NCBI RefSeq assembly: GCF_000265205.3
Contig: NC_018000.1
Coordinates: 1,922,001-1,986,000 of the forward strand
Reading direction: 5' to 3'
Length of the DNA stretch: 64,000 nt
Source: Sinorhizobium fredii USDA 257
GTDB taxonomy: Bacteria > Pseudomonadota > Alphaproteobacteria > Rhizobiales > Rhizobiaceae
The notes below the pieces were generated by a model. The model ran no database searches, was not told the origin of the DNA, and saw only the letters and a program-made list of their open reading frames with translations. This document shows, piece by piece, positions 3,363 to 20,110 of the stretch. Made by a program: the position numbers and the translations under genes. How positions within the stretch are numbered: position 1 is the stretch's first letter; every line of letters begins with the position of its first letter.

Positions 3363-3379
3363 GTTCCGATTTTCGGCAC
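3363..3379 (-). promoter_or_regulatory. Operator copy A of the 17-bp palindrome
   Basis: On the + strand it reads GTTCCG-ATTTT-CGGCAC, a near-perfect inverted repeat with a 5-bp spacer. It lies between the predicted transcription start and the ribosome site of the MmgE/PrpD-BKACE operon. Copies with 0-2 changes per arm lie at 3504, 5661, 6339 and 20094. The first base of the TTGACA box is 46 bp from the first base of the operator. The arrangement fits repressor blocking; the IclR protein encoded at 12290 is the best candidate by proximity and family, which is inference. Confidence 0.7.
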
Positions 3380-3397
3380 AAAATACAGCTTATTGCA

Positions 3398-3425
3398 ATT
3401 ATGTCGGTATTTGCCCTAGTGTCAA
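3398..3425 (-). promoter_or_regulatory. Sigma70-like promoter of the MmgE/PrpD-BKACE operon
   Basis: The leftward-reading strand has TTGACA (3425-3420), a 16-bp spacer, then CATAAT (3403-3398). This places the transcript start near 3390, about 11 bp before operator copy A. Confidence 0.6.
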
Positions 3426-3457
3426 CTCGATCAGTGATGACAAAATCTAAGCTGGAT

Positions 3458-3488
3458 TTGACAAGCTCGAGCCAGCATGCAATATACC
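3458..3488 (+). promoter_or_regulatory. Likely promoter of livF copy 1
   Basis: A perfect TTGACA at 3458-3463 is followed by an AT-rich stretch; the -10 box is not clear (TATACC at 3483 with a 19-bp spacer is one option). The operator starts 46 bp after the first base of TTGACA, as in the other units of the regulon. Confidence 0.45.
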
Positions 3489-3503
3489 ATAAACCTAGAC
3501 GCT

Positions 3504-3520
3504 GTATCGTTTTTCGGGAC
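3504..3520 (+). promoter_or_regulatory. Operator copy B of the 17-bp palindrome
   Basis: Reads GTATCG-TTTTT-CGGGAC, upstream of livF copy 1 and divergent from copy A. It shares TCGTTTTTCGGGAC or CCGTTTTTCGGGAC with copy D in front of hyuA. Confidence 0.65.
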
Positions 3521-3602
3521 AAGGCAACGTTTTACCTCCATCTCGCGACAAAGCGCGCCGTCCCGGCTGGCTCATCGCACCGAAGATTCAGGGGGGCATA
3601 AT

Positions 3603-4322
3603 ATGCTCGAAGTGAAGCAGTTGTTTGCGGGATATGGCCGTCTGACGGCCCTCAAAGGCATCAACCTTACTGTCAAACAGGGTGAAATCGTGTTCGTCGT
3701 CGGCCCCAACGGCGCAGGAAAGTCGACATTACTTAAGACCATTGCAGGCCTTATGTCTCCAAGTTCGGGCGAGATTTTCTTTCAGGGTAGCCGCATCGAC
3801 AGGAAGGTTCCGGAGCAACTATGCCGTAGCGGACTCGCGCTCATTCCTGAGGGGCGTCACATTTTCAAAACACTGACGGTTCAGGAGAACTTGAAGGTCG
3901 GTTCGATGATCCGAAGAAACTCCGCTGAGGTGCGGGCGGACCTGGAGACCATCCTCGACACGTTTCCCATTTTGCGTGAGCGCTTCAATGGCATAGCGGG
4001 ACACCTTTCTGGCGGTGAACAGCAGCAGCTGGCTATCGCCCGCTCAATTCTGCAGCGCCCTTCTCTACTTATGATTGATGAACCGTCGCTGGGATTGGCA
4101 CCGTTGGTCATCGATCAAGTATATGAAAGTTTGCGGACCCTTAATCAGTCGGGCCTGACGCTACTTATTGTCGAACAGTCAACCGCTAGGATCATGGAGC
4201 TCGCCTCTCGCATCTACGTTGTTCGAAACGGCGATGTGGTGCTAGAGGGAACGCCTGATCAATTGGCAGACGGCCGCGCCCTGGATGCCGCGTATTTCGG
4301 TTTTGCTTCGGCGACGGCTTAG
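3603..4322 (+). CDS. livF: Branched-chain-type ABC transporter ATPase LivF, copy 1
   Basis: One of two nucleotide-binding subunits of a LivFGHM-type importer for an amino acid-like or amide substrate, acting at the inner membrane face. 239 aa. Walker A GPNGAGKST is near residue 36, the signature LSGGEQQQ near 132, Walker B LLMIDEPSLGL follows. The ATG at 3603 is chosen because LivF proteins begin MLEV(K/Q)QLFAGYG, with GGGGGG shortly upstream. It stands alone behind its own copy of the operator, about 12 kb from the binding protein, livG, livH and livM of cluster 1, which lack an adjacent livF. A close paralogue with almost the same sequence is at 31484-32203. It ends 17 bp from the convergent aldo/keto reductase. 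Confidence 0.93.
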   Translation: MLEVKQLFAGYGRLTALKGINLTVKQGEIVFVVGPNGAGKSTLLKTIAGLMSPSSGEIFFQGSRIDRKVPEQLCRSGLALIPEGRHIFKTLTVQENLKVGSMIRRNSAEVRADLETILDTFPILRERFNGIAGHLSGGEQQQLAIARSILQRPSLLMIDEPSLGLAPLVIDQVYESLRTLNQSGLTLLIVEQSTARIMELASRIYVVRNGDVVLEGTPDQLADGRALDAAYFGFASATA

Positions 4323-4338: not shown

Positions 4339-5373
4339 TCACGCCGCAGGCTCTGCATAGCTGGCATGCAAGGCCCAGTCGGCGGCACTGAGCCGACCTG
4401 CGGCAAGTTTACGTTGATGCCAGTAGGGGTAGAGGTAAGGGGGAAGGCTGATGTCATTCAATCGAGCGAGCTCGCCCGGGCTTAACGTTACATCGACGGA
4501 CGCGATATTTTCCAAGAAATGCTGCTCGGTGAGGCCGCCCACCACTACTGAAGTGACCCCTGGCCTGCCAAGCACCCAGGCCAACGCAACATGCGACATC
4601 GGAATACCGCGCGCGTCGGCTATGTCCCTTATGACATCGGTAATGCGCCAGAGACGCTCCTCGTCGCGGATCGGCGGCCCGTTCCAGCTGACATCGTCGC
4701 CGCACCATTTCGGCGGGTTTTCTTTACTGAAGAGGCCCGAAAGGAGCCCGGACGTTAGAGGGCTCCAAACCATGATCCCGACACCTTGATCGACAGCAAT
4801 CGGAAGCAACTCGTACTCTGCCTCACGCGCTTCCAATGTGTAGTGAATTTGTTGGGCGATGAAGCGTGGGTAGCAGCGCATTTCGGCAACATGCAGCGAC
4901 TTCATGACGTGCCACCCTGAGTAGTTGGAACACCCAGCGTACCGAATTTTGCCTTGCCGCATGAGCGTGTCCAGTGCCTCGAGTGTCTCCTCTATGGGTG
5001 TAAGCCCATCCCATTCATGCATCAGATAGAGGTCGATGTAATCGGTACGTAGCCTTTCGAGGCTCCGTTCACATTCGCGAATTATGTGATAGCGCGATGC
5101 ACCCTCGTCGTTAGGTCCGTCCCCGACGCGCATACGCGCCTTCGTCGTGATGAGTACCTGATCGCGCCAACCCAGGAGGACCTCGCCCAGAATCGCCTCT
5201 GACCGTCCGCCCGTATACATGTTGGCTGTGTCGAAAAGGTTGATACCGCCGTCAACGCAGACATTCACCAAACGCCGCGCCTCTGCTAAGCTATGCGCCT
5301 CTCCGAAAGACAGCGTCCCCATGCTTAGAGCGGACACTTTCAGCCCGCTGCTTCCCAGATTTCTGTACTGCAT
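4339..5373 (-). CDS. Aldo/keto reductase
   Basis: NADPH-dependent oxidoreductase of the AKR superfamily, 344 aa, cytosolic. The N-terminal MQYRNLGSSGLKVSALSMG, the LFDTANMYTGGRSE segment (catalytic Asp and Tyr), the Lys in VLITTKAR and the His in LYLMHEWD together give the AKR tetrad. The C-terminal VVVGGLTEQHFLENI resembles the cofactor-binding end. The start at 5373 follows GGAGAAGGAG. It is convergent with livF copy 1; operator copy C lies about 290 bp upstream and could place it in the same regulon. It resembles the voltage-gated potassium channel beta-subunit/YghZ-type AKRs more than the aldose reductase type. The substrate is unknown. Confidence 0.9.
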   Translation of the reverse strand: MQYRNLGSSGLKVSALSMGTLSFGEAHSLAEARRLVNVCVDGGINLFDTANMYTGGRSEAILGEVLLGWRDQVLITTKARMRVGDGPNDEGASRYHIIRECERSLERLRTDYIDLYLMHEWDGLTPIEETLEALDTLMRQGKIRYAGCSNYSGWHVMKSLHVAEMRCYPRFIAQQIHYTLEAREAEYELLPIAVDQGVGIMVWSPLTSGLLSGLFSKENPPKWCGDDVSWNGPPIRDEERLWRITDVIRDIADARGIPMSHVALAWVLGRPGVTSVVVGGLTEQHFLENIASVDVTLSPGELARLNDISLPPYLYPYWHQRKLAAGRLSAADWALHASYAEPAA

Positions 5374-5660
5374 GCTCCTTCTCCATGTTCGCCAAGCCAA
5401 ATCCAGAGCCAACACGAGCTCGTCCGCGAATTAGCTGGAGAGCGCTATATTCTCACTGCTGCCGGCATGCAGACAGCCGGCACTGCCAGCCAGCAGGAAC
5501 GGAAGATCGAGGACTAGATCCGCAGTTCTCACCCGCTGTCATCAGCAGGCTCGGTCCAAATCCGCCCTCTCCGTGGAGGAGCTCGGTCGTTGTTTACCAC
5601 GCAACCCGCATGCATGACGGCACCATGCGAGTGCCAATGGTGTTGCTCGGAAGATTTATG

Positions 5661-5677
5661 GTTCCGTTTTTCGGCAC
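5661..5677 (-). promoter_or_regulatory. Operator copy C of the 17-bp palindrome
   Basis: Reads GTTCCG-TTTTT-CGGCAC on the + strand, differing from copy A in one spacer base. On the leftward strand a TTGACT box (5718-5713), a 17-bp spacer and TTAGTT precede it, so it could control the aldo/keto reductase. The box-to-operator distance is 41 rather than 46-47, so this pairing is weaker than the others. Confidence 0.5.
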
Positions 5678-5970
5678 TTTGTCCTGAAGAACTAAACATG
5701 GTACGGTAGTCGAGTCAACAGTTTCCAAGCCTCAGCGGTTGCACGGCAAGACTACGAGGGGCTGTAGCGCCGACATTCAAACGTGTTCCAAGGATCGCTT
5801 CATGCCATCGAGTTGCTCGTGGAGAGATCCTTGCGTATTCCTGGAAGGGTCGCTTGAACAGCCGTTGTTCTGTCGGACTTGGTGACTGTAGGCCAATGGC
5901 CTATTTCGGCGAGCGGCTGGATGTCGACAAAACCCCCGGACTTCAGTCGCCGTTGATCATGGCTGGGAAC

Positions 5971-5990
5971 GGCCAGTAATTGGAGCTTGG
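5971..5990 (+). repeat. 20-bp direct repeat, copy 1
   Basis: GGCCAGTAATTGGAGCTTGG, identical to positions 6062-6081, 91 bp further on. Function unknown. Confidence 0.8.
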
Positions 5991-6061: not shown

Positions 6062-6081
6062 GGCCAGTAATTGGAGCTTGG
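6062..6081 (+). repeat. 20-bp direct repeat, copy 2
   Basis: Second perfect copy of the repeat at 5971-5990; the flanking bases differ. Confidence 0.8.
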
Positions 6082-6291: not shown

Positions 6292-6320
6292 TTGACAAGT
6301 CCCGCACCTAAGCTTCTAAT
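6292..6320 (+). promoter_or_regulatory. Sigma70-like promoter of the hyuA operon
   Basis: TTGACA (6292-6297), 17-bp spacer, TCTAAT (6315-6320): a near-consensus promoter, predicted start near 6327, just before operator copy D. Confidence 0.65.
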
Positions 6321-6338
6321 GTCATTATTTAGCACAAA

Positions 6339-6355
6339 GTACCGTTTTTCGGGAC
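6339..6355 (+). promoter_or_regulatory. Operator copy D of the 17-bp palindrome
   Basis: Reads GTACCG-TTTTT-CGGGAC, 20 bp before the hyuA ATG and 47 bp after the first base of TTGACA. Binding here would block transcription of the hyuA-hyuB-transaminase-thioesterase operon. Confidence 0.7.
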
Positions 6356-6375: not shown

Positions 6376-8406
6376 ATGAGCATCAGCGTCGGCGTGGATG
6401 TAGGCGGAACTTTTACCGATCTTTTTATGATGGATACGGAGAGCTTGGAGTTCCGCACCACCAAGATTCCCACAACGGTCGATGATCGGTCCCGGGGATT
6501 TTTGAACGGCCTGGAGACTATTGGCGCGCGACCTGCCACGATCGACTGGCTCATCCACGGCACCACGGCCGGCACGAATGCCGTTCTGGAGCGTAAGGGT
6601 GCGCGATGCGGTCTGATCACGACTCGCGGCTTTCGGGACGTCCTTGAGATAGGTCGCAGAACGCGCCCGAACGCCTACGGTCTATCGGGCAGCTTCGATC
6701 CCTTGATCGAACGCGATTTCCGTCTCGAAGTCTCCGAGCGGATCGATTCCCGCGGCAACGTTGTCGTTCCGCTCAACGAGGATGAGGTACGGGCAACCGC
6801 TCGTCGGTTGCTGGAGATGGGCGCCGAAGCGCTGGTCGTGGTCTTCCTGCATTCCTACATTAGTGATGATCACGAGGCGCGGGCGGCAGAGATCGTTCGG
6901 GAGATCTGGCCCAATGACCACGTCGTAGCGAGCCACGAAGTCATACGCGAAATGCGGGAGTTTGAGCGCTCCAGCACCGCTGCTATTCACGCGTCGATTG
7001 GGCCTGTGGTCAGCCGTTACATCTCTGATGTCGCAAGTCAGCTGAAGCAGAACGGTTTCAGGAACGAATTGCTCGTAATGCAAGCAAACGGCGGAATGAT
7101 GGCTTCCTCGCTCGTAAGCCGCCATGCCGTCCAGACAGTTATGTCGGGCCCGGCTGCTGGTGTTCTAGCGGCAGCAGCCATCGCCAAACGCGCGGGGATC
7201 GACAATCTGGTTACCGGGGATATGGGTGGCACGAGCTTCGATGTCGCAATCGTATCAAACGGCGAGCCAATTGTATCGTCTGAAAAGGATCTGGCCTACG
7301 CCGTTCCGATCCGCATCCCAATGATCGACATTCATACGATCGGCGCTGGTGGTGGCAGCATTGCCCGCTTGGACAAAGCAGGCATGATACGCGTCGGTCC
7401 AGAAAGCGCCGCCTCGTTTCCCGGGCCGATCGGCTTTGGGAGGGGAGGCAGCGAACCCACTATTACGGACGCCAACTTCCTGCTCGGGCGACTGAATCCG
7501 AGCGTGGTCACCGGTTCGGCTGTGGCGGCCCCCCTGGACAAGATTGCCTCTACGCTCGAAGACCGAATCGGGCGCCAGCTTGGCTTCGATGCTTACCAGA
7601 CAGCGGCGGCAATCCTGGACGTCGCAAATGCTGAACTCGCGGGAGCCATTCGGCTGGTGTTGATCGAAAAAGGCCACGACCCTCGTGATTTCGCTCTAAT
7701 GCCATTCGGCGGCGCTGGGCCGCTGCATGCGGTATCGATCGCGCGCGATCTTAGCATTCCCCGCGTTCTCGTCCCGCGCTACCCAGGTCTTAATTCGGCA
7801 CTTGGCTGCGTCCTCGCCGATGTTAGGCATGACTTCGTTCAGACAGTCAATGAACCGCTGGGCGGGCTCAACCGCAACTCCATTCAGAACTTACTTGCCG
7901 AGCAAGAGCGCGCCGGCCGTGATCTGCTCGAGCAGGAAAAAGTGAGTGTTGCCCATGTCGAGGTGTCGCACGAGTTCGATCTTCTTTTCCGTGGTCAGTC
8001 ACACACGCTACGTGTGCCGATGCGGGGGTCGCACTTCGATCCCGAGGCTTTGGAGGCGAACTTCCTTGCCACATATCTGGCACGGTACAATCTATCCTTA
8101 CCCGAGATGCACCCGACACTCGTGAATGTGCGTACAACCGTTATCGGCGTGCGGGAACGGATAGACCTCGGCATCTTCAGGCCGAAGCCGGGCAGACTGG
8201 AAGATGCCATTACCGGATCGCGCGACGTCTACTTCGGTGATCGGTGGATTAAGTCGCTGACATACAATCGCGACAAGCTGCCCGAGGGCTCCGAAATTAG
8301 CGGTCCTGCAATCATCGAACAGCCCGACAGCACATTTGTTCTCCACCCGGACGCAACCGCCAAAGTCGACGATATTGGCAACCTTCTCGTGCATGTTCAC
8401 GGCTGA
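6376..8406 (+). CDS. hyuA: Hydantoinase/oxoprolinase family subunit A
   Basis: ATP-binding subunit of an ATP-dependent enzyme that opens cyclic amides (N-methylhydantoinase, 5-oxoprolinase, caprolactamase) or, in relatives, carboxylates ketones (acetone or acetophenone carboxylase). 676 aa, normal for the family. The N-terminal phosphate-binding motif [14 protein letters not shown], the [17 protein letters not shown] segment, MSGPAAGV and [11 protein letters not shown] (second phosphate loop) are all present, with FGGAGPLHA near residue 450. The start follows AAGGTG. It is first in the operon with subunit B 30 bp downstream, then a class III aminotransferase and a thioesterase. That neighbourhood favours lactam or cyclic ureide opening to an amino acid over ketone carboxylation, but the choice is inference. 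Confidence 0.92.
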
Positions 8407-8436: not shown

Positions 8437-10146
8437 ATGTCCAAAGCCCTACAGCGCGACGGCGCAGTCTCCATGCTCGCAGATGTCGACCCCGTCACCC
8501 TGACGGTCATCGAGAAAGGTCTTCAACAGGTTTGTACCGAGATGGATCTTGTGCACGAGAAAACTTCGTTCTCGCCGATTATCTCGGAAGCGTACGATCG
8601 CGCAAACGGCATCTACCATCGCGAGGATGGCCGAATGATCGCTCAAGGCGAATTAGGTTTGCCCATCTTCTTGGGGCAACTCGCAGTCACCACCAATACG
8701 GTTATAAGGACCAGGGACGATCTAGTCGACGGTGACATTGTCATCATGAATGACCCCTATTTGGGCGGCTCCCACCTAATGGACGTCAGGATGATCCGTC
8801 CGTTCTACTATAATGGCCGTCTGTGGGCCTATCTCTCCAACGTCGGCCACTGGCGGGACACCGGTGGAGTCGTTCCGGGAGGGTTTACGACTCGGTCGAC
8901 GGAGATCCATCAGGAGGGCTTACGCATCCCCCCCATCAAGCTTGTGAAGGCGGGCGAGATGCAGGATGACGTGCTCCAGCTCATCCTTAACAACATCAGG
9001 GTGCCTAACGATTCTCTTGGCGACGTAAAGGCGCAGATTGCAGCGCTCAGCGCCGGCGCGAAACGCTTGACCGCTCTGCTTGACCGTTACGGCGAGAACC
9101 TTGTGGACCAAGCCATTGCCGAATTGGAAGTGCGCTCCGAACGCCTGATGCGATCCCACATCGAGACGATTCCCGACGGCGTCTGGAGCGCGGTCGCTCA
9201 TGTTGATAGCGATGGGATCGTGAACGAGCCGCTGACAATTCGTGTGAACCTCCAAGTTTCTGGATCTGACATGCAGGTGGACTTCGCGGGCTCGAGTGCG
9301 CCGTGCGCCGGACCCTTGAACACCGTGTGGGCGACTACGCTCAGCGCCGTTTACATCGCGCTGAAGCATATTTTCCCAGATGTTCCGATGAACGCAGGTT
9401 GTTTCCGCCCTATCCAGGTGGAGGAGCCGCGCGGCACCTTCCTCTATGCCGAATACCCTAGTCCTACAGCGGGTTCGGCGGCCGAGGTATCACAGCGCAT
9501 TATTGAAGCCATCTTGTTGGCGCTCGCACCGGCCATACCCGATAGGATCTTCGCTCCGCCGGCGGGAACAAGCGGCAATCTCAGCCTCGGCGGCGTCGAC
9601 CCATTAACTGGTGAGAACTACGTCATGTATTATTTTTCCGGCGGAGGCTACGGGGGTTGGTATGACGGTGACGGTATTAGTAACGGCTGTGCCACTATTG
9701 GCATTTCCAAGACGCAACCGGTCGAGGTTCTGGAGCTTCGCTATCCCGTGATCTTTGAGCATTATTCGCTTCGAGAGGATTCGGGTGGGGCCGGAAAATA
9801 TCGAGGGGGATTGGGCGTCGATTATCGAATGAAGCTCCTGAGGGGAACGGCAACGGCCTCATTCATGATGGACCATGGACGGCAGGGCCCACCCGGCACG
9901 CTTGGTGGGCTCCCCGGGGCTGCGAACGAAATTGTCGTCTCTCGCGATGGTCAAGCCGAGATACCCGAACACATTTCAAAGGGAGAAGGATATGTCATGC
10001 GACCAGGAGATTGGATTGATGTGAAAACCCCGGGTGGAGGAGGATATGGAGATCCTTGCGAAAGAGACTGCGGTCGCATAGCGAAGGATGAGAAGAGTGG
10101 TTACCTGGCTCGAACGAGCAGCTTTATGCCCTCGCCGGGTGAATAA
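8437..10146 (+). CDS. hyuB: Hydantoinase/oxoprolinase family subunit B
   Basis: Partner of the subunit encoded just upstream; together they form the ATP-dependent amidohydrolase. 569 aa, typical length. Family features: DPVTLTVIEKGLQQV at the N terminus, the metal-binding-type stretch NDPYLGGSHLMDVRMIRPFY, VGHWRDTGG, the DFAGSSAPCAGPLN region, YPSPTAGSAAEVSQRI and the closing TPGGGGYGDP. GAGGA lies before the ATG. The gap to hyuA is 30 bp and to the aminotransferase 63 bp, so all are likely co-transcribed. Confidence 0.92.
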   Translation: MSKALQRDGAVSMLADVDPVTLTVIEKGLQQVCTEMDLVHEKTSFSPIISEAYDRANGIYHREDGRMIAQGELGLPIFLGQLAVTTNTVIRTRDDLVDGDIVIMNDPYLGGSHLMDVRMIRPFYYNGRLWAYLSNVGHWRDTGGVVPGGFTTRSTEIHQEGLRIPPIKLVKAGEMQDDVLQLILNNIRVPNDSLGDVKAQIAALSAGAKRLTALLDRYGENLVDQAIAELEVRSERLMRSHIETIPDGVWSAVAHVDSDGIVNEPLTIRVNLQVSGSDMQVDFAGSSAPCAGPLNTVWATTLSAVYIALKHIFPDVPMNAGCFRPIQVEEPRGTFLYAEYPSPTAGSAAEVSQRIIEAILLALAPAIPDRIFAPPAGTSGNLSLGGVDPLTGENYVMYYFSGGGYGGWYDGDGISNGCATIGISKTQPVEVLELRYPVIFEHYSLREDSGGAGKYRGGLGVDYRMKLLRGTATASFMMDHGRQGPPGTLGGLPGAANEIVVSRDGQAEIPEHISKGEGYVMRPGDWIDVKTPGGGGYGDPCERDCGRIAKDEKSGYLARTSSFMPSPGE

Positions 10147-10209
10147 AAGTGGGCGGCTTTGACACGATCAAAGTCGCAGAAAGTTCGAGTTCCAGGGGGA
10201 AATATTCCT

Positions 10210-11604
10210 ATGCGATTGAATGGCAATGTCGTAGACGAGCTGAATCGCTCGATAGATCAATTGAGGCGCGAATTCGCGCAAAGAAATCCGCTGAGCGAAC
10301 GCGCTGCTCTCGATGCGAGGCGGGTTCTCCCAGGAGGCAATACCCGATCTGTGCTGTTTTACGAACCGTTTCCGCTGACGATCCTATCCGGAAAGGGGGC
10401 CGACATAACCGATCTGGACGGCCATAGCTATGCCGATTTCGTCGGCGAGTTTTCCGCCGGATTGTACGGCCATTCGGATGCAGTCATTCGGAAGGCCATC
10501 ATCGACGCGCTCGATGATGGCACCGTTCTCGCCGGCCCCAATCGATACGAGGCAAAGTTCGCGGAATCCTTGCAATCTCGTTTTCCCAGCATGGAACTCC
10601 TGCGCTTCTGCAATTCCGGTACTGAGGCGAACATCCTTGCCCTCGTTACCGCGCAGTATTTCACGCGCCGGCGCAAGATCATGGTTTTCGAAGGTGCATA
10701 TCACGGCGGCGTGCTAGTTTTCCCAATTGGTGGAAGCCCGATTAACGTGCCGTTCGATTTCATCGTCGCTCCCTATAATGATGGCGACGCGGCTGCGAAG
10801 CTTATTAAAGAAAATCAAAACGACCTTGCGGCCGTCATCGTCGAACCAATCTTGGGCGCGGGCGGAAATCTTCCGGGCACGACCGATTTCTTTTCCGCTC
10901 TCAGGCGCGAAACTGAAGCTGTCGGAACGCTCCTGATCTTCGACGAAGTCAAGACCTCGCGTTGTGGCGCTGCCGGAATGCAGGGCCGGATTGGCATCAG
11001 GCCAGATTTGACGACCCTCGGCAAATATCTTGGCGGAGGGTTGCCGATTGGTGCGTTCGGTGGGCGTACCGACATCATGGATCACTATAATCCCTACAAG
11101 CCTGACTCACTACGCCATGCGGGGACCTTCAACAATAATGTTTGCACGATGGCCGCTGGACTCGCTGGTTTGACGAAGGTGTTTACGCCTGAGCGTGCTG
11201 ACGTCTTTCATGAGGAAAGCGAGCGGCTGCGACTGGAGTTCCAGCGGATCGTCGATCTCAGTTCCGTGCCGTTGTGTTTCACAGGTCTCGGATCGCTCTG
11301 TACACTTCATCTTGCTGGAACGCCGCTTCAGGAAGCGGCAGATGTGACACCGCTTAGCCGTCGGGTCGGCCTTCTTTTCCACATGTACGGCTTGCTGAAC
11401 GGCGTCGCCGTCGCCGGGCGCGGAGACTTCTACCAATCTCTTCCGATGACTGCGGCACATCGCCAAGCAGCAAGCGCGGTCCTTGCCGCGTTCGTTGGCG
11501 AATATGGAGAACTAATCTCCAGTCTCGCGGAAGAGAATGCGCGGGCACTCCCGCGAAGCGCTTGCCTACAGCGCATATCTACCAATCGTCAAAGCAACGC
11601 GTGA
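10210..11604 (+). CDS. Class III aminotransferase, beta-transaminase (beta-amino acid aminotransferase) type
   Basis: PLP enzyme predicted to move the amino group of a beta-amino acid to a keto acid acceptor. 464 aa. PLP lysine is Lys272 in LTTLGKYLGGG; FDEVKTSR holds the PLP-nitrogen Asp. The regions PGGNTRSVLFYEPFPLTI, FCNSGTEAN, AYHGGVL and HAGTFNNNVCTMAAG closely follow the Variovorax/Mesorhizobium beta-phenylalanine aminotransferases as I remember them. Arg46 and Arg404 fall where those enzymes have carboxylate-binding Arg41 and Arg398. Related glutamate-1-semialdehyde aminomutases are the alternative, less likely here. The start at 10210 follows AGGGGGA. Placement after hyuAB and in the same regulon as a BKACE suggests it makes the beta-keto acid that the BKACE cleaves. 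Confidence 0.87.
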   Translation: MRLNGNVVDELNRSIDQLRREFAQRNPLSERAALDARRVLPGGNTRSVLFYEPFPLTILSGKGADITDLDGHSYADFVGEFSAGLYGHSDAVIRKAIIDALDDGTVLAGPNRYEAKFAESLQSRFPSMELLRFCNSGTEANILALVTAQYFTRRRKIMVFEGAYHGGVLVFPIGGSPINVPFDFIVAPYNDGDAAAKLIKENQNDLAAVIVEPILGAGGNLPGTTDFFSALRRETEAVGTLLIFDEVKTSRCGAAGMQGRIGIRPDLTTLGKYLGGGLPIGAFGGRTDIMDHYNPYKPDSLRHAGTFNNNVCTMAAGLAGLTKVFTPERADVFHEESERLRLEFQRIVDLSSVPLCFTGLGSLCTLHLAGTPLQEAADVTPLSRRVGLLFHMYGLLNGVAVAGRGDFYQSLPMTAAHRQAASAVLAAFVGEYGELISSLAEENARALPRSACLQRISTNRQSNA

Positions 11605-11617
11605 TTACGGGAGAAAT

Positions 11618-12079
11618 GTGGTGGACGAGACTTCGGCCAAGAGCGCATTTGATCAAGCCATGAAGAATTACAAACCTGAGTTTGGCAAGTTCTTTCTGGC
11701 GCAGTTGCTGGCGCTCGATATTTCGTACCCCGATGATAGATGTGTCATCCGCTTTCCTGTGCACGACTTCCTCTTCAATCCGCAGGGATCGCTGCACGGC
11801 GGGGTCGTTGCCACGGTGATGGATATTTCGATGGGGCATCTCCTCCATCGCAGCTATGACCGCGCCGGTACGACAATAGAAATGAAGGTTCAGTACATGC
11901 GCCCGATAAATGCTGGAACCGCTGTCTGCACCGGACAGTTCTTGAAGCGCGGGAGGAGTATTGCGTTCCTGGAGTCTCGCCTTGAGGACTCGTCAGGAGC
12001 ACTGGCGGCTATCGCCACATCAACGTGGAAGTGCAGCAAACCGGGTCAGAACGAGAAAGAGATCGCTGAGCGCATCTGA
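11618..12079 (+). CDS. PaaI-type hotdog-fold thioesterase
   Basis: Predicted acyl-CoA thioesterase, 153 aa, cytosolic. The hotdog signature FNPQGSLHGGVVATVMDISMGH carries the HGG loop and the acidic residue on the central helix; VQYMRPINAG and a ARG-like basic strand follow. The GTG at 11618 is preferred because GGGAGAA precedes it and it lies 13 bp after the aminotransferase stop; an in-frame ATG at 11537 would overlap that gene by 68 bp and has no good ribosome site. Last gene of the hyuA operon. It may release CoA from the BKACE product. Confidence 0.85.
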   Translation: MVDETSAKSAFDQAMKNYKPEFGKFFLAQLLALDISYPDDRCVIRFPVHDFLFNPQGSLHGGVVATVMDISMGHLLHRSYDRAGTTIEMKVQYMRPINAGTAVCTGQFLKRGRSIAFLESRLEDSSGALAAIATSTWKCSKPGQNEKEIAERI

Positions 12080-13166: not shown

Positions 13167-14594
13167 TTATAAATCCGATCCGCGGACAGGCGGAACGTGT
13201 ACTAGCTTGCCTGGATTGAAGGTCGTCGAAGGGTCCAGTGCTCTCCGAACGCGCTGCATCAGGGATAAGGAGGTGCGATCCTTGTAATGCGCCAGAAGCT
13301 CGATCTTTGATTGGCCGATGCCGTGTTCCGCGCTGATCGATCCTCCCAGTGTCGTAACGAGGTCGTAAACTGCCCGGTTGATGCAATCCGCGTCTTCAGC
13401 GGGGGCCAAAACATTGAAGTGTATATTGCCGTCTCCGACATGCCCGAATGCAATCGGCCGTGCATGGGGGACGTGAGTTCTTACAGTTGCTGGAGCTCGC
13501 GCCAGGAAATCGGAGATACGCGAGACTGGGATCGAGATGTCGTGCTTGGCGCTTGGGCCATGGCGGCGCTCGGCTTCTGTGATCTCGTCGCGCAGACGCC
13601 AAAGCTCCACGCGCTGCTTCTCGCTTTGCGCCAGCACTGCATCCATTGCAATGCCGATTTCAAAAGCGCTCGCCAGGCTTCTTTCGACGATATCATCGAG
13701 GACCACTTCCTTCACCGTCGCGGAAACCTCCGCCAACACGTACCAGGGGTAGGACTGTTCAAATGGATCACGTGCTTCCTCCACCACTCCGAACACGAGA
13801 TCGAGGCAGACGCGCTCGATCAGTTCAAAGGCGGTCAGTGAGTCTCCAAGTTCCGATTGGAGATACCTTAACAAGCGAACAGCTGCCGCTGGCGACGGAA
13901 CGGCGATAAACGTCGTAACGCATGAGTGCGGCAACGGGAAAAGCTTGATCGCGGCCGCCGTGACAATACCGAGAGTGCCTTCCGAACCAATGAATAGCTG
14001 CTTGAGATCGTAGCCGGCATTGTTCTTACGGAGTCGCTGAAGCCCGTTCCAAATCGACCCGTCGGCCAATATCACCTCAAGGCCCAAGACCAGCTCACGC
14101 GTCGAGCCGAAACGCAGAACGTTGGTTCCCCCGGCATTTGTAGAGACTATGCCGCCAATTTGCGCGCTTCCTTCCGCCGCAAGACTGATCGGTAACAGCC
14201 GACCAGCAGTCCTAGCAGCCGCCTGCGCGTTCTGAAGAATAACGCCGGCCTCCACGACGATCACGTTGTCGAGGAGATCGAGGTCGCGAATTCGATTGAG
14301 GCGCCTCAACGACACCACGATCTGCTGCGACCCCTCATGCTTGGTGAGTGGCACGCCGCCGCCGACCAATCCAGTGTTGCCGCCCTGCGGGACGACCTTC
14401 ACGCCATGGGCTGATGCGATCCGCACCGCGACGGCCACCTCGTCCGCTGTGGACGGCTCCACAACCCCAAGCGCCGTTCCGCGGTACCGGCTCCTCCAGT
14501 CCACGAGATAAGGAGCCATGTCGTTTGCGTCGGTCTTGATGGCCGAATGCCCGAGCGCCGATCTCAGCTCTCTCAGAAAGGGTTTCTCGTGCAG
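13167..14594 (-). CDS. FAD-binding oxidase of the D-2-hydroxyacid dehydrogenase (GlcD) type, likely CTG start
   Basis: Flavoprotein predicted to oxidise a D-2-hydroxy acid. N-terminal FAD domain with VVPQGGNTGLVGGGVP and the SAQIGGIVSTNAGGTNVLRFG loop; C-terminal domain with the metal/substrate His cluster FGHVGDGNIHFNVL and SAEHGIGQSK. The first ATG (14519) falls inside a conserved block: the preceding in-frame codons read FLRELRSALGHSAIKTDAND, which matches the usual N terminus of this family. The only start-like codon behind a ribosome site is CTG at 14594, 8 nt after a perfect AGGAGG. I therefore annotate 475 aa from CTG. It lies 65 bp behind the PLP decarboxylase gene and is likely co-transcribed with it. 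Confidence 0.85.
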   Translation of the reverse strand: MHEKPFLRELRSALGHSAIKTDANDMAPYLVDWRSRYRGTALGVVEPSTADEVAVAVRIASAHGVKVVPQGGNTGLVGGGVPLTKHEGSQQIVVSLRRLNRIRDLDLLDNVIVVEAGVILQNAQAAARTAGRLLPISLAAEGSAQIGGIVSTNAGGTNVLRFGSTRELVLGLEVILADGSIWNGLQRLRKNNAGYDLKQLFIGSEGTLGIVTAAAIKLFPLPHSCVTTFIAVPSPAAAVRLLRYLQSELGDSLTAFELIERVCLDLVFGVVEEARDPFEQSYPWYVLAEVSATVKEVVLDDIVERSLASAFEIGIAMDAVLAQSEKQRVELWRLRDEITEAERRHGPSAKHDISIPVSRISDFLARAPATVRTHVPHARPIAFGHVGDGNIHFNVLAPAEDADCINRAVYDLVTTLGGSISAEHGIGQSKIELLAHYKDRTSLSLMQRVRRALDPSTTFNPGKLVHVPPVRGSDL

Positions 14595-14659: not shown

Positions 14660-15916
14660 TTAGTAGCTATGTTCGTCGTATGCCACAGGCGCCGCCACAT
14701 TGCCGCGCACATGATCAATGGCCTTGCGAACCTCCGCCAGATACTCGGTGACGGTTGCAAGGTGAGCGGGATTGACGCCTTGCTGAATGGCTTTTGGTTC
14801 GCGCATGCGCCCTCGTAGCCAGCCGCATTCTTCGAGGCGATCCGCAACGGCATAAATGTCGAGCTTGGGGTCGCTGGTTGCAAACGAGATCAGATTGCTC
14901 TCGCCATTCGGCGTCAGGCAATAAATGTCGGGAATTGCATTCAAGCCTTCTATCAACTGCATGGTGGCATCCATCGTGAGCTTCGCCGCCCGAAGGTAGC
15001 CCTCCACGCCGAGAAAGTGCATCACGGCCCAAGCGGACGCGATCGCTCCGCCGGCCTTTGTTCCAAGGAAGGTAGGGGTGGAATAAGTACCACGCGGCCA
15101 GCCGCTGAAAGAGAAGCGTTCGTGTTCTTGATCCTCGACATCTCGATAGAGCACGACGCTTGCACCTTTAGCCGCATATCCGAACTTATGAATATCCGCC
15201 GACAGGCTGGATACGCCAGGCACGCGGAAGTCCCACTCGGGAATTGGATACCCGAGCCGCTCGGCGAACGGCGAAAGAAATCCTCCCCAGCAGCCATCCA
15301 CATGAAGACGCAGGTCTCTTTCTTGCGCCAGCCTTCCGATCTTGCTGATCGGATCGAAGGTTCCAAATGGATAATTCGGCGCAGACGCAAAGAGCATCAT
15401 CGTCTTTTGGTCGATCGAAGTGCGCAGGAGTGCAGGGTCTGCCCGGAATTCAGCGGTGTGCGGTGTCCGCCTGATATCGACGCCCAGGAGTTGACCAGCC
15501 TTGTCGAGGCAAGGGTGAGCGGTCTCGCAAGCCACGATGTTGTAGCGTCCATCTGGCTCGCCGCGCCTGTGCCGCGTCAGGTCGCGCGCGGTCTTGACCG
15601 CCATGAAAATGCTTTCGGTTCCACCCGACGTGAAGGAGGCTCCGGCGGCCGCGGGTGCGTTGAAGAGCGATATCGCCATCGACTTGATGTCGTCGGTCAT
15701 CAACTCGAGGCTCTTGAAGGCGCGGCCGGCGCCCAAGCCGTTTTCGGCTATGTATTCGCCATAGGCCTCGCGCTGCACATCAAGGGTCTCGTCGTCGACG
15801 AAGTAGGTATAAGAGGGCACCCGTCCAGCGCGCCAGTCGAAGTCGAGCGACTTCATCTGCCTGAGCTCCTGCATTATGACGTCTCTTTCCAAACCCTTTG
15901 CCGGTATCTGCTTCAT
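14660..15916 (-). CDS. Group II PLP-dependent decarboxylase / sphingosine-1-phosphate-lyase-like enzyme
   Basis: Fold-type I PLP enzyme, 418 aa. The Schiff-base lysine is Lys244 in SADIHKFGYAAKG, the PLP Asp is Asp207 in HVDGCWGG, and GASFTSGGTESIFMAV is the phosphate-binding region. The layout matches glutamate/tyrosine decarboxylase relatives and sphingosine-1-phosphate lyase; bacterial members can cleave phosphorylated amino alcohols, decarboxylate amino acids or split beta-hydroxy amino acids, so the reaction is not decided. It follows livM copy 1 by 95 bp on the same strand and precedes the FAD oxidase, so it probably belongs to the transport operon controlled by operator copy E. Confidence 0.85.
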   Translation of the reverse strand: MKQIPAKGLERDVIMQELRQMKSLDFDWRAGRVPSYTYFVDDETLDVQREAYGEYIAENGLGAGRAFKSLELMTDDIKSMAISLFNAPAAAGASFTSGGTESIFMAVKTARDLTRHRRGEPDGRYNIVACETAHPCLDKAGQLLGVDIRRTPHTAEFRADPALLRTSIDQKTMMLFASAPNYPFGTFDPISKIGRLAQERDLRLHVDGCWGGFLSPFAERLGYPIPEWDFRVPGVSSLSADIHKFGYAAKGASVVLYRDVEDQEHERFSFSGWPRGTYSTPTFLGTKAGGAIASAWAVMHFLGVEGYLRAAKLTMDATMQLIEGLNAIPDIYCLTPNGESNLISFATSDPKLDIYAVADRLEECGWLRGRMREPKAIQQGVNPAHLATVTEYLAEVRKAIDHVRGNVAAPVAYDEHSY

Positions 15917-16011: not shown

Positions 16012-17127
16012 CTAGGCTCTTACGGAACTTGTGTCTTCAACATCGTTCACAAAGGCTGCACCGTCTTCCTCAGCCGTTTTTAGGCTAGGTGCCTCCGGTG
16101 CTTCGGCTGCGTGGTTTGCCATTGACCAAGGCAAGCTAAGTTCTCGCCCGCCCATAATCCCGCCCTTCCGAAAGACCAGGATCAGTAGCATGATGACGGC
16201 GAGGATCAGCTCCTGCGACCCCGGTGGGAAAGCGATGTCCATGGCCCCAAGCTGAAAGCCTGCTTCCGCGCGGCGGAAGACATCGATCACAACACTGATA
16301 ACAGCCACGCCTAATACTGTCCCTGCGAGGCTTTGCATGCCGCCAATCACGAGCATCGCCACGATCAAGAATGTCTGGTTCAGGAAAAAGGTCCCGATTG
16401 AGACGGTGCCCGTGAAATGCGCAAAAAGGACGCCGCCAAGTCCTGCCACGAAGCCGGACAAGGTAAAGGCAAACAGACGCGTCCAATAGAGGGATATGCC
16501 CGAAGCGGCGGCGGCTATTTCATCCTCACGCGTAGCCCTTAGCATGAGCCCCCAACGTGATGTCTGGTAAAGATAGGCGATGACAATAGCGACGAGGGCA
16601 CACGCTAAAGCGACCCAGATCGTCACGTAGACGGGCAGGCCCACGATGGTTGATGTCCCCATCGTGACGCTATCCCAATTGGAGTAAACGACATTTAGGA
16701 TGAAGAGGAGCGCGAGCGTCGAGATCGAGGCGCCTAGGCCAGTAAGCCGCATCAGGACTAGCCCCGACAGAAAGGCGACGCCTCCTGCCAATCCAATCGA
16801 CGTCAGTGCCGCCGGCAGAAGGGGGAACGTATTGTCACGCAGAAAGGCAGGCAGACCAGACATAGTTATGGGCTTTAGCATCTGGCAGCACGTCTGCCAT
16901 GCTGTCGCATAGGCGGCGATCGCACAAAAAGCCATATGCCCGAATGAGACGATCCCGGAATTGCCCACGAATATGTATAGGCCGACGGCGAAGACGAGGC
17001 GTATCAACGCTTCTGTGGCGACGCGGTGCACGCTCGGCGAGGTGAACTGTGCAAGGAGGAGCACTGCGATCAACAACGGGACGACCAAGCCAATAACTGG
17101 GAACATGAGACGGACCAGGCGCATCAC
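16012..17127 (-). CDS. livM: Branched-chain-type ABC permease LivM, copy 1
   Basis: Inner-membrane permease, 371 aa, about ten hydrophobic segments. The LivM signature SGFVAGLGGVLFAHFTGTVS and the cytoplasmic loop RWGLMLRATREDEIAAAASGI are seen. The ATG overlaps the livH stop as ATGA, showing translational coupling. The cytosolic C-terminal tail from about residue 335 is acidic and variable. It is a close paralogue of the permease at 26031-27128. Confidence 0.92.
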   Translation of the reverse strand: MMRLVRLMFPVIGLVVPLLIAVLLLAQFTSPSVHRVATEALIRLVFAVGLYIFVGNSGIVSFGHMAFCAIAAYATAWQTCCQMLKPITMSGLPAFLRDNTFPLLPAALTSIGLAGGVAFLSGLVLMRLTGLGASISTLALLFILNVVYSNWDSVTMGTSTIVGLPVYVTIWVALACALVAIVIAYLYQTSRWGLMLRATREDEIAAAASGISLYWTRLFAFTLSGFVAGLGGVLFAHFTGTVSIGTFFLNQTFLIVAMLVIGGMQSLAGTVLGVAVISVVIDVFRRAEAGFQLGAMDIAFPPGSQELILAVIMLLILVFRKGGIMGGRELSLPWSMANHAAEAPEAPSLKTAEEDGAAFVNDVEDTSSVRA

Positions 17128-18038
17128 ACTCTCTCCTTGGCAGCGCTCGTCACGATCAGACCCTGCGGACGCACGAGCAAAATGAGAATGACCAGCGCGA
17201 AAACACCGGCATCGCGAAAGGCACGCATGTCCTCCGGGAGATAGGATTGCAGTAGGACGCTGACGATCCCGACGATGAACCCGCCTAGAACGGCGCCGGG
17301 CAAGGACCCCATTCCCCCGATAACTGTGGCGAAGAACGCGTAGACGACGAGCATCATGCCCAGTCTGATGTCGAGCATCCCCGTCTGTATCACGAAAAGC
17401 AACGATATGGTGCCGCCCAGGATACCGCTGATCGCGAACGCGATGGCAATGACGCGGTTGGCCGGCACACCAAGCAGTCGAGCCATCTGGAAGTCTTCAG
17501 CCGCTGCTCGCAGCTGGACGCCAAGTGACGTCTTCTTGAGGAACAAGACCAAGGCTATCAGCAGCGTAACCGCGACCGCCATCGTCAGGAGTTGCACACC
17601 AGGAACCCGGATTCCGAACAGCTCCACGGCCCGAGTGAGCGATTCGCCTATGCTGACTGCTTTCGGGCGCCCGCCATGCAGCAGAGTGAGGAGACTTTGC
17701 AGGAAGTAACTCACGGCGAAGGACGAAATTAGAAGGGTCGTCGGATTGGAACTGCGCAGTGGACGAAAGGCGATGCGTTCGGTCAATAGCGCCAGGACAG
17801 TGACGGTCAAGACAACGCAGCCGATCATCAGTGCCGGCGGCAGGGCGCCAAACAGCAGCGGAGGTGTGATCGACGCAGTTGGCACGACGAGCGAATAGGC
17901 ACCTATGGTAACGTAATCGGCCTGGGCGAAGTTGATGAGCCTCATCACACCGAAAACCAAGCCAATGGCGAGCGCGACGAGAGCATAGAGACTGCCAAGG
18001 GCGATCGCGTCGATGAGGACTTGCACAACGTTGGTCAT
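17124..18038 (-). CDS. livH: Branched-chain-type ABC permease LivH, copy 1
   Basis: Second permease of the importer, 304 aa, hydrophobic throughout. It has the LivH N terminus VLIDAIALGSLYALVALAIG and the VFGVMRLINFAQ motif, and ends in LVRPQGL like the family. AGGATG precedes the ATG. It sits 8 bp after livG and overlaps livM by 4 bp. Paralogue at 27128-28042. Confidence 0.93.
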   Translation of the reverse strand: MTNVVQVLIDAIALGSLYALVALAIGLVFGVMRLINFAQADYVTIGAYSLVVPTASITPPLLFGALPPALMIGCVVLTVTVLALLTERIAFRPLRSSNPTTLLISSFAVSYFLQSLLTLLHGGRPKAVSIGESLTRAVELFGIRVPGVQLLTMAVAVTLLIALVLFLKKTSLGVQLRAAAEDFQMARLLGVPANRVIAIAFAISGILGGTISLLFVIQTGMLDIRLGMMLVVYAFFATVIGGMGSLPGAVLGGFIVGIVSVLLQSYLPEDMRAFRDAGVFALVILILLVRPQGLIVTSAAKERV

Positions 18039-18046
18039 GAGACATC

Positions 18047-18802
18047 CTATATTACTGCATCTGCGCGAGAGGTTTTGTGTCCGAGATATGCGCGCAGCAC
18101 ATTCGGATCCATCTTGATCTGTTCTGGAGTGCCTTCTGCCAGGCTCTTGCCGCCGTCCAGAACGTGGATCCGCTGACAGACACCCATGATGACTTGCATG
18201 TTGTGCTCAATCAGCAGCACGCCACATCCGAAGCGTTTCGGAATTCCAGTAATGGTCGCCATTAGCTGCTCGCACTCTCGATCGTTCATGCCGGAAGCGG
18301 GCTCATCGAGCAGTGCAAATGACGGCTGTACGGCTAGTGCGCGTGCGATGCTGATACGTCTTTCGTCGCTGTAAGGCAGTGAATGGCAGAGGCGATCATG
18401 TCCTCGGTTATAACCGATCCATTCGAGTATATCTCGGGCTTGGTCCGTGGCAGACGTGTTCGACAGACCAATGCCGAGACCAGCGACGGTAAGATTTTGC
18501 AGCACCGTCAACTCGCGGAAAAGCCTCGCGGCTTGAAAACTGCGTGCAATACCTGCTTGCGCCATCTTTCTTGCCGACAGTGCCGAAACATCTTCGCCAT
18601 CGAGACTAACGACGCCGGGACTTGGGCGTTGGAACCCACTGAGAACATTGACCATAGTGGTCTTGCCGGCCCCGTTCGGCCCAATAAGTCCCAGTATATC
18701 CCCGGCCTGTAGAGTGAGATCGACACCGCGCAGCGCTTTGATGCCACCGAAAGCAACATGTATGTTCTTGGCCTCAAGGACCTGTTTCCTACGTTGACCC
18801 AT
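18047..18802 (-). CDS. livG: Branched-chain-type ABC transporter ATPase LivG, copy 1
   Basis: Nucleotide-binding subunit, 251 aa. Walker A GPNGAGKTT near residue 40, Walker B FALLDEPASGMND, and the LivG-type switch LLIEHNMQVIM are visible. The signature region reads SLPYSDERRISIARAL rather than the textbook LSGGQ, as is common in LivG (SYGXQR). AAGGTGGAG precedes the ATG. Second gene of the transport operon, behind the binding protein gene. Confidence 0.93.
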   Translation of the reverse strand: MGQRRKQVLEAKNIHVAFGGIKALRGVDLTLQAGDILGLIGPNGAGKTTMVNVLSGFQRPSPGVVSLDGEDVSALSARKMAQAGIARSFQAARLFRELTVLQNLTVAGLGIGLSNTSATDQARDILEWIGYNRGHDRLCHSLPYSDERRISIARALAVQPSFALLDEPASGMNDRECEQLMATITGIPKRFGCGVLLIEHNMQVIMGVCQRIHVLDGGKSLAEGTPEQIKMDPNVLRAYLGHKTSRADAVI

Positions 18803-18836
18803 AGCTCCACCTTACGAGGTGCCGTCATAAAATCTT

Positions 18837-18860
18837 GTGTCCGCCCGCGTGGGCGGACAC
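18837..18860 (-). terminator. Intercistronic hairpin after the binding-protein gene, copy 1
   Basis: GTGTCCGCCC-GCGT-GGGCGGACAC: a perfect 10-bp stem with a 4-base loop, 18 bp past the binding-protein stop and before livG. On the transcript it is followed by a short U-containing stretch, so it may be a partial terminator or an mRNA stabiliser that lifts binding-protein output over the membrane subunits. Confidence 0.7.
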
Positions 18861-18878
18861 AGTCGGACATTCGCCCCT

Positions 18879-20078
18879 CTATTGACCTACGCGGAAAAGG
18901 AGCTTCATGTCGGGAAGGAAGGTGTTCCTGAACATTTCCACCGCCCGAAACGAACCGTTTTCAACCTTCATGATAAGCTGAGGCCGGTTGATTTGGATAT
19001 GGAGCTGGTCGGTATAAGTCGTCAGACCAGCGGTGAAAGGTTCGTCCTTGTACTGGTTCATCACGGCAAGAACCGCTTGCGATTCCGTCGTTCCGGCCTT
19101 TTCGACCGCACGCGCCCATTGTTCGATCGAACTGTAGCCAAGCACGGCGAATGACGAGGTTGGATCTTCGTTCCAACGCTGCTTGAAGGCAGTCAAAAAC
19201 TCTCCGATCTCCTTGCGCGGGTCGTCTCCATAAAGCGACATGATTGCGGGAATGTAGAACTCTTTGAGATCGGGCAGTGCGCCGAGCCAGTAATTGTCGG
19301 TCATGCCGGTCAACGAGACGATCGGGGTGTCTATACCAGCGGCGCGGATCTGGCGGATCGCGGATGCTCCACCCGGGGTGTAGGTGCAGAGAAAGATGAC
19401 ATCAGGAGCCGTCCCGAGACCCTTGAGGCGGGTGATTTGTGAAGCGATCGAAGGATCGTCATTCTTGAACGTGTCGGAACCGAGGAGTTTCCCACCCAGA
19501 TCATTCCATCCAGCGCGATAACCCGCGCATCCCGATTTGCTATATTCGATTGATACGTCTTCGAGAGCATAAGCATTTCGGTGACCCATGACTTTGTAGG
19601 CATATTCAGCCATGACGATGCCTTGGGTCTGTGCGGCGGTATGCGCCGTAAAGACCAGCGGGCCCACTCCCTGCACACCCATTTTCGGGTCGCCTGCACC
19701 GGGTGAAATGGCAATAATGCCGGCGTTTTGGGCCGCCAGCGCCGCCGGAGCGCCGTAATCATAGTCTGTCGGCACAATCATCATTTCCGCGCCCCAGTCG
19801 AGGAGCGATGCGCCCGCCGTTCCCGCGAGCGTCTGGTCGGTCTTGGTGTCGACAACCCGGTATTCGATTTGGCGGCCAAGTAGACCACCAGCCTTATTGA
19901 TCTCCTCAATCTTAAGCACAGCCGCCTTGAACGGCCCTACGTCGTAGTTTGCCATCCATCCAGACTGAGCAATCGCGAAGCCGATTTTGATCGGCTCCTT
20001 ATCCTGCGCGAAGGCGCTTGCCGCGAACGCTGCCCCAAGAAGCGCGCCAAGCCCCCAACCACGTGCCGTGAAATACAT
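18879..20078 (-). CDS. livK: Periplasmic substrate-binding protein of branched-chain-type ABC importer, copy 1
   Basis: Periplasmic type I binding protein (Leu/Ile/Val-binding family), 399 aa. Signal peptide at about residues 1-24 (MYFTARGWGLGALLGAAFAA, cleavage near AFA-QD). The mature start PIKIGFAIAQSGWMANYD and NKAGGLLGRQIEYRVVDTKTD are family-typical. GGGAGGT lies 5 nt before the ATG. First gene of the operon; operator copy E is 16 bp upstream. The paralogue at 29030 is clearly related along its whole length but more divergent than the membrane subunits, as expected if ligands differ. It need not bind a branched-chain amino acid; amide and urea binders share this fold. Confidence 0.9.
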   Translation of the reverse strand: MYFTARGWGLGALLGAAFAASAFAQDKEPIKIGFAIAQSGWMANYDVGPFKAAVLKIEEINKAGGLLGRQIEYRVVDTKTDQTLAGTAGASLLDWGAEMMIVPTDYDYGAPAALAAQNAGIIAISPGAGDPKMGVQGVGPLVFTAHTAAQTQGIVMAEYAYKVMGHRNAYALEDVSIEYSKSGCAGYRAGWNDLGGKLLGSDTFKNDDPSIASQITRLKGLGTAPDVIFLCTYTPGGASAIRQIRAAGIDTPIVSLTGMTDNYWLGALPDLKEFYIPAIMSLYGDDPRKEIGEFLTAFKQRWNEDPTSSFAVLGYSSIEQWARAVEKAGTTESQAVLAVMNQYKDEPFTAGLTTYTDQLHIQINRPQLIMKVENGSFRAVEMFRNTFLPDMKLLFRVGQ

Positions 20079-20093
20079 CGACTACCTCCCTTA

Positions 20094-20110
20094 GTCCTGA
20101 AAAACGGAAC
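20094..20110 (-). promoter_or_regulatory. Operator copy E of the 17-bp palindrome
   Basis: In the transcription sense it reads GTTCCG-TTTTT-CAGGAC, 16 bp before the binding-protein ATG. Its first base is 47 bp from the first base of the TTGACA box at 20157-20152. One arm base differs from the others. Confidence 0.65.

Follow-up and report, generated by a model that had tools for sequence, protein, structure and literature searches.

We analysed a stretch of 64,000 nucleotides from Sinorhizobium fredii USDA 257 (contig NC_018000.1; hereafter the window), in which five copies of a 17-bp palindrome lie among genes for a Liv-type transporter, a hydantoinase-like enzyme (HyuAB), an aminotransferase and an IclR-family regulator. 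An initial annotation had read these copies as the operators of one repressor-blocked regulon, most likely controlled by the IclR protein encoded from position 12290. We consider it highly probable that each of the five sites is the stronger half of a tandem IclR operator and that four, perhaps five, units form one local regulon; its reader is very probably the protein at 12290. The predicted sites and promoter elements are listed below with coordinates, strand and basis. Spacings are counted from the first base of the TTGACA box to the strong site.

3363..3379, minus strand: strong palindrome, putative operator of the unit of MmgE/PrpD and beta-keto acid cleavage enzyme (BKACE) (pattern and matrix)
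3383..3399, minus strand: weak companion at prpD, 20 bp toward the promoter, overlapping the register-set -10 (matrix)
3420..3425, minus strand: TTGACA -35 box of prpD at 46 bp, 16-bp spacer to CATAAT (spacing and register)
3458..3463, plus strand: TTGACA -35 box of livF at 46 bp, 16-bp spacer to CAATAT (spacing and register)
3484..3500, plus strand: weak companion at livF (matrix)
3504..3520, plus strand: strong palindrome, putative operator of livF (pattern and matrix)
5661..5677, minus strand: strong palindrome, probable target an aldo/keto reductase whose open reading frame starts 246 bp downstream (pattern and matrix)
5681..5697, minus strand: weak companion of the 5661 site (matrix)
6292..6297, plus strand: TTGACA -35 box of hyuA at 47 bp, 17-bp spacer to TCTAAT (spacing and register)
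6319..6335, plus strand: weak companion at hyuA (matrix)
6339..6355, plus strand: strong palindrome, putative operator of hyuA (pattern and matrix)
20094..20110, minus strand: strong palindrome, putative operator of the binding-protein-livGHM unit (pattern and matrix)
20114..20130, minus strand: weak companion at the binding-protein unit (matrix)
20152..20157, minus strand: TTGACA -35 box of the binding-protein unit at 47 bp, 17-bp spacer to TGACAT (spacing and register)

With up to three mismatches allowed, the pattern GTWCCGTTTTTCGGSAC matched the window only at 3363, 3504, 5661, 6339 and 20094, with zero or one mismatch each. This bears out both the five copies that had been reported and the earlier statement that the window holds no more of them. 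In shuffles of the window the same pattern gave a mean of 0.47 matches and a maximum of 3, and five were reached in none of 100. A genome-wide scan had been proposed as a check, and we ran it with the consensus pattern. All matches with zero or one mismatch in the 7.03-Mb genome were the five sites of the window, which are thus the best five; the rest of the genome held 3 matches with two mismatches and 45 with three, giving a total of 53 compared to 78 for the reversed control pattern. No IclR relative was found within about 1.5 kb of the three two-mismatch sites. A genome-wide regulon was therefore rejected, and since the five best matches stand together and weaker ones are no commoner than in the control, the sites form a local group. 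Among 32 genus mates, a single match with at most one mismatch was seen in 5, and a single reversed-control match in 4.

The spacing between the sites and their promoters had been described as hard to obtain by chance, and the measured distances agree. The first base of a perfect TTGACA box lies 46 bp from the site at prpD and at livF and 47 bp at hyuA and at the binding-protein gene, which makes four of the five sites, while the whole window holds 21 such boxes on both strands. The chance of TTGACA at 46 or 47 bp on either side for four of five sites is about 1e-12, or about 1e-10 if any of 100 spacings is allowed, and when the upstream stretches of the five sites were shuffled, four of five had a common spacing in none of 5000 trials. 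Chance was thus rejected as the source of the spacing. The four sites that had been placed directly before the first gene of a unit, those of the prpD, hyuA, binding-protein and livF units, have the promoter spacing; the 5661 site is off this rule.

The operator had been taken to be a single 17-mer; this needs correction to two palindromes in tandem, which together cover about 37 bp. A second, weaker palindrome was found 20 bp nearer the promoter, across a 3-bp gap, by a matrix of the strong sites with each left out in turn, applied to nine sites (five of the window and four of Mesorhizobium sp. Root102, described below). At the offset of -20 the leave-one-out mean was +6.0, against a mean of -20.1 and a best value of -7.6 at other offsets, and none of 20000 random-offset trials matched the companion score. 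Single companions scored from -2.4 (prpD) up to 14.8. The 5661 site has a companion even though its promoter spacing differs, and its target, the aldo/keto reductase, is therefore uncertain. The -10 hexamers were placed by register, the end of the hexamer being taken where the companion palindrome starts. This gave CATAAT (prpD), CAATAT (livF), TCTAAT (hyuA) and TGACAT (binding protein) in the window and TTTCAT, AATGGT, CCAAAT and TCAAAT in Root102, of which 7 of 8 end in AT. Placed in this way, the difference between 46 and 47 bp becomes a spacer of 16 or 17 bp. The companion may be weak since its bases would double as promoter.

In the mechanism that we propose, the IclR protein would bind as two dimers, each on one of the palindromes, which lie on the same face of the DNA at a distance of 20 bp, or about two helical turns. 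Counted from the -35 box, the operator would span about -10 to +27. Its weak palindrome would start on the final two bases of the -10 and its strong one would lie just past the transcription start, and protein bound over this span would exclude RNA polymerase. An inducer, probably a compound of the pathway, would release the regulator. We infer the -10 positions, start sites, binding, repression and inducer of this scheme, as well as the substrate discussed below. It is unlikely that IclR rather activates these promoters, or both activates and represses them. The best NCBIfam match of the protein, though far under the cut-off, is the PcaR/PcaU/PobR group, of which several regulators are activators, and some of the -10 hexamers are weak; however, sites covering the start from about -10 to +27 suit repression, activator sites lie mostly upstream of -35, and the -35 boxes of the four units are perfect consensus.

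The protein at 12290, to which we assign the sites, carries an IclR helix-turn-helix domain (PF09339, 5.6e-12) and the matching C-terminal domain (PF01614, 8.9e-23), both past cut-off. At the locus of Mesorhizobium sp. Root102 (L031), 13 members of the gene set are present at 67-87% identity and in a changed order: iclR (its protein 70% identical to that of the window), BKACE, livF, hyuA, hyuB, the transaminase, the thioesterase, a flavin adenine dinucleotide (FAD) enzyme, a pyridoxal phosphate (PLP) enzyme, livMHG and the binding protein. No match to prpD or the aldo/keto reductase was found in the 20.8 kb of this locus that were compared. Sites precede hyuA, BKACE, livF and the binding-protein gene, differing from the consensus of the window at 4, 2, 1 and 3 positions, and TTGACA lies at 46 or 47 bp from all four. 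Alignment of the same promoters in relatives had been suggested earlier; Root102 thus keeps sites and spacing although its genes are rearranged, and the pair before hyuA is also present in two genomes from other families of the order (L073 and L074). These have IclR homologs at 36-40% and HyuA at 69% identity, and both carry the two palindromes in tandem at the hyuA promoter. The box is TTGACA at 47 bp in one and TTGACC at 46 bp in the other, and the palindromes start on the final two bases of TTTAAT and TATAAT. The sites, the tandem spacing, the -35 spacing and their recurrence with IclR in other genomes were all read directly from the sequences.

Among the loci compared, close relatives with nearly the full gene set amount to one, that of Root102. 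Of 33 genomes of the genus, the own one alone has an IclR match at E <= 1e-60, and at E <= 1e-40 the protein was matched in 3 of 150 relatives, the own genome included. At E <= 1e-35 it was matched in 17 of 394 and 9 of 397 genomes, own included, the homologs being only 32-46% identical. Two distant relatives were found on plasmids. Among 44 proteins from the protein database, nine besides the own IclR are 80-87% identical over most or part of the query; they were not used in the comparisons. Root102 also has a tandem pair before iclR itself (L031 9957-9993, score 18.6), a sign of possible autoregulation there. A serine recombinase/resolvase-like open reading frame, identified by eye, lies past the Root102 binding-protein gene (L031 19262-19852) and may bear on movement of the cluster.

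We then considered a panel of 23 loci with IclR homologs (E up to 1e-35, 32-46% identity), using the recorded gene strands. The best tandem match of a locus fell no more than 350 bp upstream of the homolog gene in 16 of 23 and no more than 350 bp downstream of it in 5 of 23. Permuted matrices gave a mean of 8.6 of 23 for both sides, with 21 reached in 0 of 300, and a mean of 5.4 for the upstream side only, with 16 reached in 2 of 300; the two-sided limit of 350 bp was chosen after an earlier look at the same loci, and the exact counts should be read with care. Eight TetR loci had best tandem scores from 4.8 to 16.7, and 17 of the 23 IclR loci scored above 16.7, 16 of these with the match adjoining the gene. 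At one further locus (L069) the first palindrome stands, by eye, 29 bp behind TTGACA compared to 26 or 27. For seven of the 23 loci and the two plasmid loci, a non-random choice of mostly high IclR score, the neighbourhood was opened to 20 kb. An aminotransferase relative was found near iclR in all nine, at 51-53% identity in two and 35-37% in seven, and none in 128,689 control bases, a narrow control consisting of five stretches of one orthologous block and 40 kb of the window. BKACE relatives (40-45%) were found in 4 of the nine and HyuA relatives in 3. Four of the loci (L068, L070, L071 and L072) combine IclR homologs at 36-41% with an aminotransferase relative (35-37%) and BKACE (40-45%); their palindromes include TTCTCGATAATCGGTAC and GTCTCGTTAATCGAGAA, and they perhaps represent a sister regulon.

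Since Root102 combines the sites, the rearranged gene set and the 70% identical IclR, and tandem palindromes lie beside the genes of many IclR homologs, the best-supported reading is one regulon predicted to be repressed by the IclR protein at 12290, as the initial annotation had supposed. That another IclR-family paralog is the main reader or a co-reader appears improbable. IclR motifs are similar across the family and the own genome holds 24 candidate places for IclR relatives, unconfirmed as genes; yet the sites are limited to the 12290 locus, co-occur with the same IclR and genes in the rearranged Root102, and the 32 genus mates without a close IclR also lack a site cluster.

The TetR-family protein encoded at 168, which had been named as the alternative reader, is a very improbable candidate. 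It adjoins the BKACE-prpD unit, and its family is one that binds palindromes close to promoters. Its gene, however, belongs to a flanking block: in five genus mates the gene and 6-9 kb leftward, as far as compared or to the contig end, are 84-91% identical at the DNA level; the homology runs to window position 820-998 and ends before BKACE. These five mates keep TetR at 84-94% with no IclR match at E <= 1e-60, and near it only LivF of six cluster proteins was matched, at the level of ABC (ATP-binding cassette) ATPases in general. Sites with at most one mismatch number 1 in one of these mates (G001) and 0 in the other four, whereas Root102 has the sites and no TetR ortholog (best 37%). The intergenic region that the TetR gene shares with its divergent neighbour moreover holds a different palindrome, TCTAACT-N6-AGTTAGA, which is kept by four of the five relatives as well as by the own genome, the fifth relative being unaligned there. 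This palindrome, between the TetR gene and a divergent ABC binding-protein gene (L075 9951 to window 168), is probably the operator of TetR itself. In three of the five genus mates (L037, L038 and L039) the TetR match has one in-frame TGA each.

Finally, a reading of the repeats as a small repeat element or as RNA features (leader hairpins, terminators) is the least probable explanation and was rejected: the sites do occupy 5' leaders or their vicinity and combine a palindrome with a T-rich core, but the strand of that core relative to the gene varies between units, the arms are imperfect, the companions resemble one another in register more than in sequence, and the spacing of 46 or 47 bp is kept while the flanks change.

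Several observations weigh against the proposed IclR regulon. The 5661 site lacks the spacing of 46 or 47 bp and has only a TTGACT at 41. The putative -10 hexamers are imposed by the register and not discovered independently, and two of them are poor (AATGGT at the BKACE gene of L031 and TGACAT at the window binding-protein gene). The prpD companion, at -2.4, is the weakest of nine, and the own promoter of the window iclR has only a weak tandem candidate near 12178-12214 (score 9.9). The Root102 sites have drifted, with 1-4 mismatches to the window consensus, and at up to three mismatches the Root102 genome gives 51 matches compared to 58 for the reversed control, with two unrelated places at 2. 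The sites there are not outstanding genome-wide, and their specificity thus rests on position; in the two other two-mismatch regions the cluster proteins gave general ABC ATPase matches only. In the homolog panel, 6 of 23 IclR loci score inside the TetR range, two of the 16 with an upstream match (L058 and L064) score very low, and the best tandem match comes after the gene in 5 of 23. Most aminotransferase matches are distant, and other class III aminotransferases might reach 35-37%. Some of the 24 candidate IclR-relative places may also read similar palindromes.

The genes of the predicted regulon are as follows.

1056..1931, minus strand: BKACE (profile match)
1979..3346, minus strand: MmgE/PrpD-family protein starting with ATG at 3346; the GTG listed as its start, at 3379, falls inside the putative operator
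3603..4322, plus strand: LivF-type ABC ATPase, ATG at 3603 behind a purine-rich stretch (by eye)
4339..5415, minus strand: aldo/keto reductase, possible regulon member
6376..8406, plus strand: HyuA, hydantoinase/oxoprolinase A (relative of N-methylhydantoinase and caprolactamase alpha)
8437..10146, plus strand: HyuB, hydantoinase B
10159..11604, plus strand: class III aminotransferase, closest solved structures beta-phenylalanine aminotransferase and beta-transaminase
11537..12079, plus strand: hotdog thioesterase
12290..13087, plus strand: IclR-family regulator; the open reading frame opens with GTG at 12263, the database copy of 265 aa starts at 12290
13167..14519, minus strand: FAD-linked dehydrogenase of the D-2-hydroxyglutarate/D-lactate dehydrogenase kind
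14660..15916, minus strand: PLP enzyme of the sphingosine-1-phosphate lyase/group II decarboxylase kind
16012..20078, minus strand: LivM, LivH, LivG and the periplasmic binding protein of an ABC transporter of the branched-chain type

The closest solved relatives of the transaminase are 4ao9, 6iz9 and 2yku (E 6e-121 to 2e-119), the first a beta-phenylalanine aminotransferase and the other two beta-transaminases, structures that we take to come from Variovorax and Mesorhizobium LUK. Transaminases of aromatic beta-amino acids carry a motif R41, V43, E75, Y76 (PMC9850050). In the alignment with 4ao9 the window enzyme keeps R41, V43 and E75 and has F for Y76 (3 of 4), the motif numbering being assumed to be that of the 4ao9 enzyme with a chain tag of an assumed 20 residues. 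The match of HyuA to N-methylhydantoinase (5.6e-132) spans almost the entire protein, and HyuA and HyuB score 500.2 and 327.9 against the caprolactamase CapAB models NF050156 and NF050157, short of the cut-offs of 1000 and 1000. The BKACE family cleaves beta-keto acids, which is the product expected from a beta-type transaminase. The presence of both enzymes suggests that the regulon serves the catabolism of a beta-amino acid, or of a lactam yielding one, a substrate class inferred from the gene families. The uptake branch would consist of the binding protein with LivGHM plus the separately located LivF, and the catabolic branch of HyuAB, the beta-type transaminase, BKACE, the thioesterase, MmgE/PrpD, the FAD dehydrogenase and the PLP lyase/decarboxylase. 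In the simplest route a lactam or cyclic amide would be opened to a beta-amino acid, which would be transaminated to a beta-keto acid and then cleaved in an acetyl-CoA-dependent step.

With respect to the surroundings, window 820-998 is a junction at which the block kept in five genus mates ends and the regulon genes start, and because the conserved block stops there the cluster looks like an insert. Its putative right edge was not found within the first 45 kb of the window. By eye, the left block beside TetR comprises a spermidine/putrescine-type ABC transporter, an SDR protein, a hydrolase and dehydrogenase subunits; to the right of the binding-protein promoter, window 21186-24347 encodes an SDR protein, an ABC ATPase with a TOBE domain and a permease, which by eye resemble in kind the genes left of TetR. 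An exact 20-bp direct repeat, GGCCAGTAATTGGAGCTTGG, occurs at 5971-5990 and 6062-6081, 91 bp apart, in the long stretch before hyuA where no gene was recognised.

A wider interpretation can be put forward tentatively, with a little less than even confidence. An undescribed IclR subfamily may govern the breakdown of beta-amino acids or lactams (by HyuAB, beta-transaminase and BKACE, with Liv uptake) in Hyphomicrobiales through a fixed composite element, and, as part of the same interpretation, this element may consist of TTGACA, a spacer of 16 or 17 bp and a -10 whose final two bases open the 37-bp tandem operator. As the element recurs before rearranged genes and in other families, the register itself would be under selection. 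For a regulator of unassigned role the analysis supplies a precise predicted operator, a list of genes and a probable class of substrate, and other genomes could be searched with the composite element for the same pathway. To our knowledge, the natural pathways and inducers around beta-transaminases are poorly described. These enzymes are sought for producing pure beta-amino acids (PMC3281772), and the locus is a source of candidate partner enzymes and of a candidate switch for such pathways.

Among known systems, the sequence relatives of the IclR protein in PDB include TtgV (2xrn, 1.3e-12), the blcABC repressor (3mq0, 7.8e-12) and a regulator of the Pca regulon (8eju, 1.4e-11). TtgV, BlcR and similar structure-solved repressors are distant from it in sequence and act on other substrates. 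It is no member of the PcaR/PcaU/PobR family (TIGR02431), its best NCBIfam match at 95.1 bits against a cut-off of 284.75, nor of the next, BhcR (NF045644), at 84.2 bits against 350. HyuAB are relatives of the N-methylhydantoinase, caprolactamase and acetophenone carboxylase family, below the cut-offs of the named enzymes. Among the papers listed, judged by titles and the openings of abstracts, no IclR regulator of beta-amino-acid or hydantoinase genes was found. The closest description is that of IclR group 1, with the motif GKTYCRYW3-4RYGRAMC and, for 94 orthologous groups, sites in tandem at 18-22 nt (Suvorova and Gelfand 2021, PMC8222616). The regulator, gene set and promoter register of the window were not found in the abstract, in passages or in the opening part of the Results of that paper. 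According to the same source, the site centre usually lies 20-80 nt ahead of the translation start, and IclR-family proteins, TtgV being named, bind as dimers or tetramers. Here the centre lies 24 nt from the start of the binding-protein gene, 25 from prpD, 29 from hyuA, 91 from livF and 254 from the reductase. By eye, our 17-bp odd palindrome agrees with a GTTYCRYW3RYGRAAC-type consensus at 15 of 17 positions at 5661 and 14 of 17 at 6339 (two sites counted), and the paired palindromes are 20 nt apart from centre to centre, within the 18-22 nt of known IclR tandem sites. In its GTTYCRYW3RYGRAAC-like 17-mer, 20-nt tandem and Liv-transporter genes the window system shares features of group 1, and its tandem operator fits the published description.

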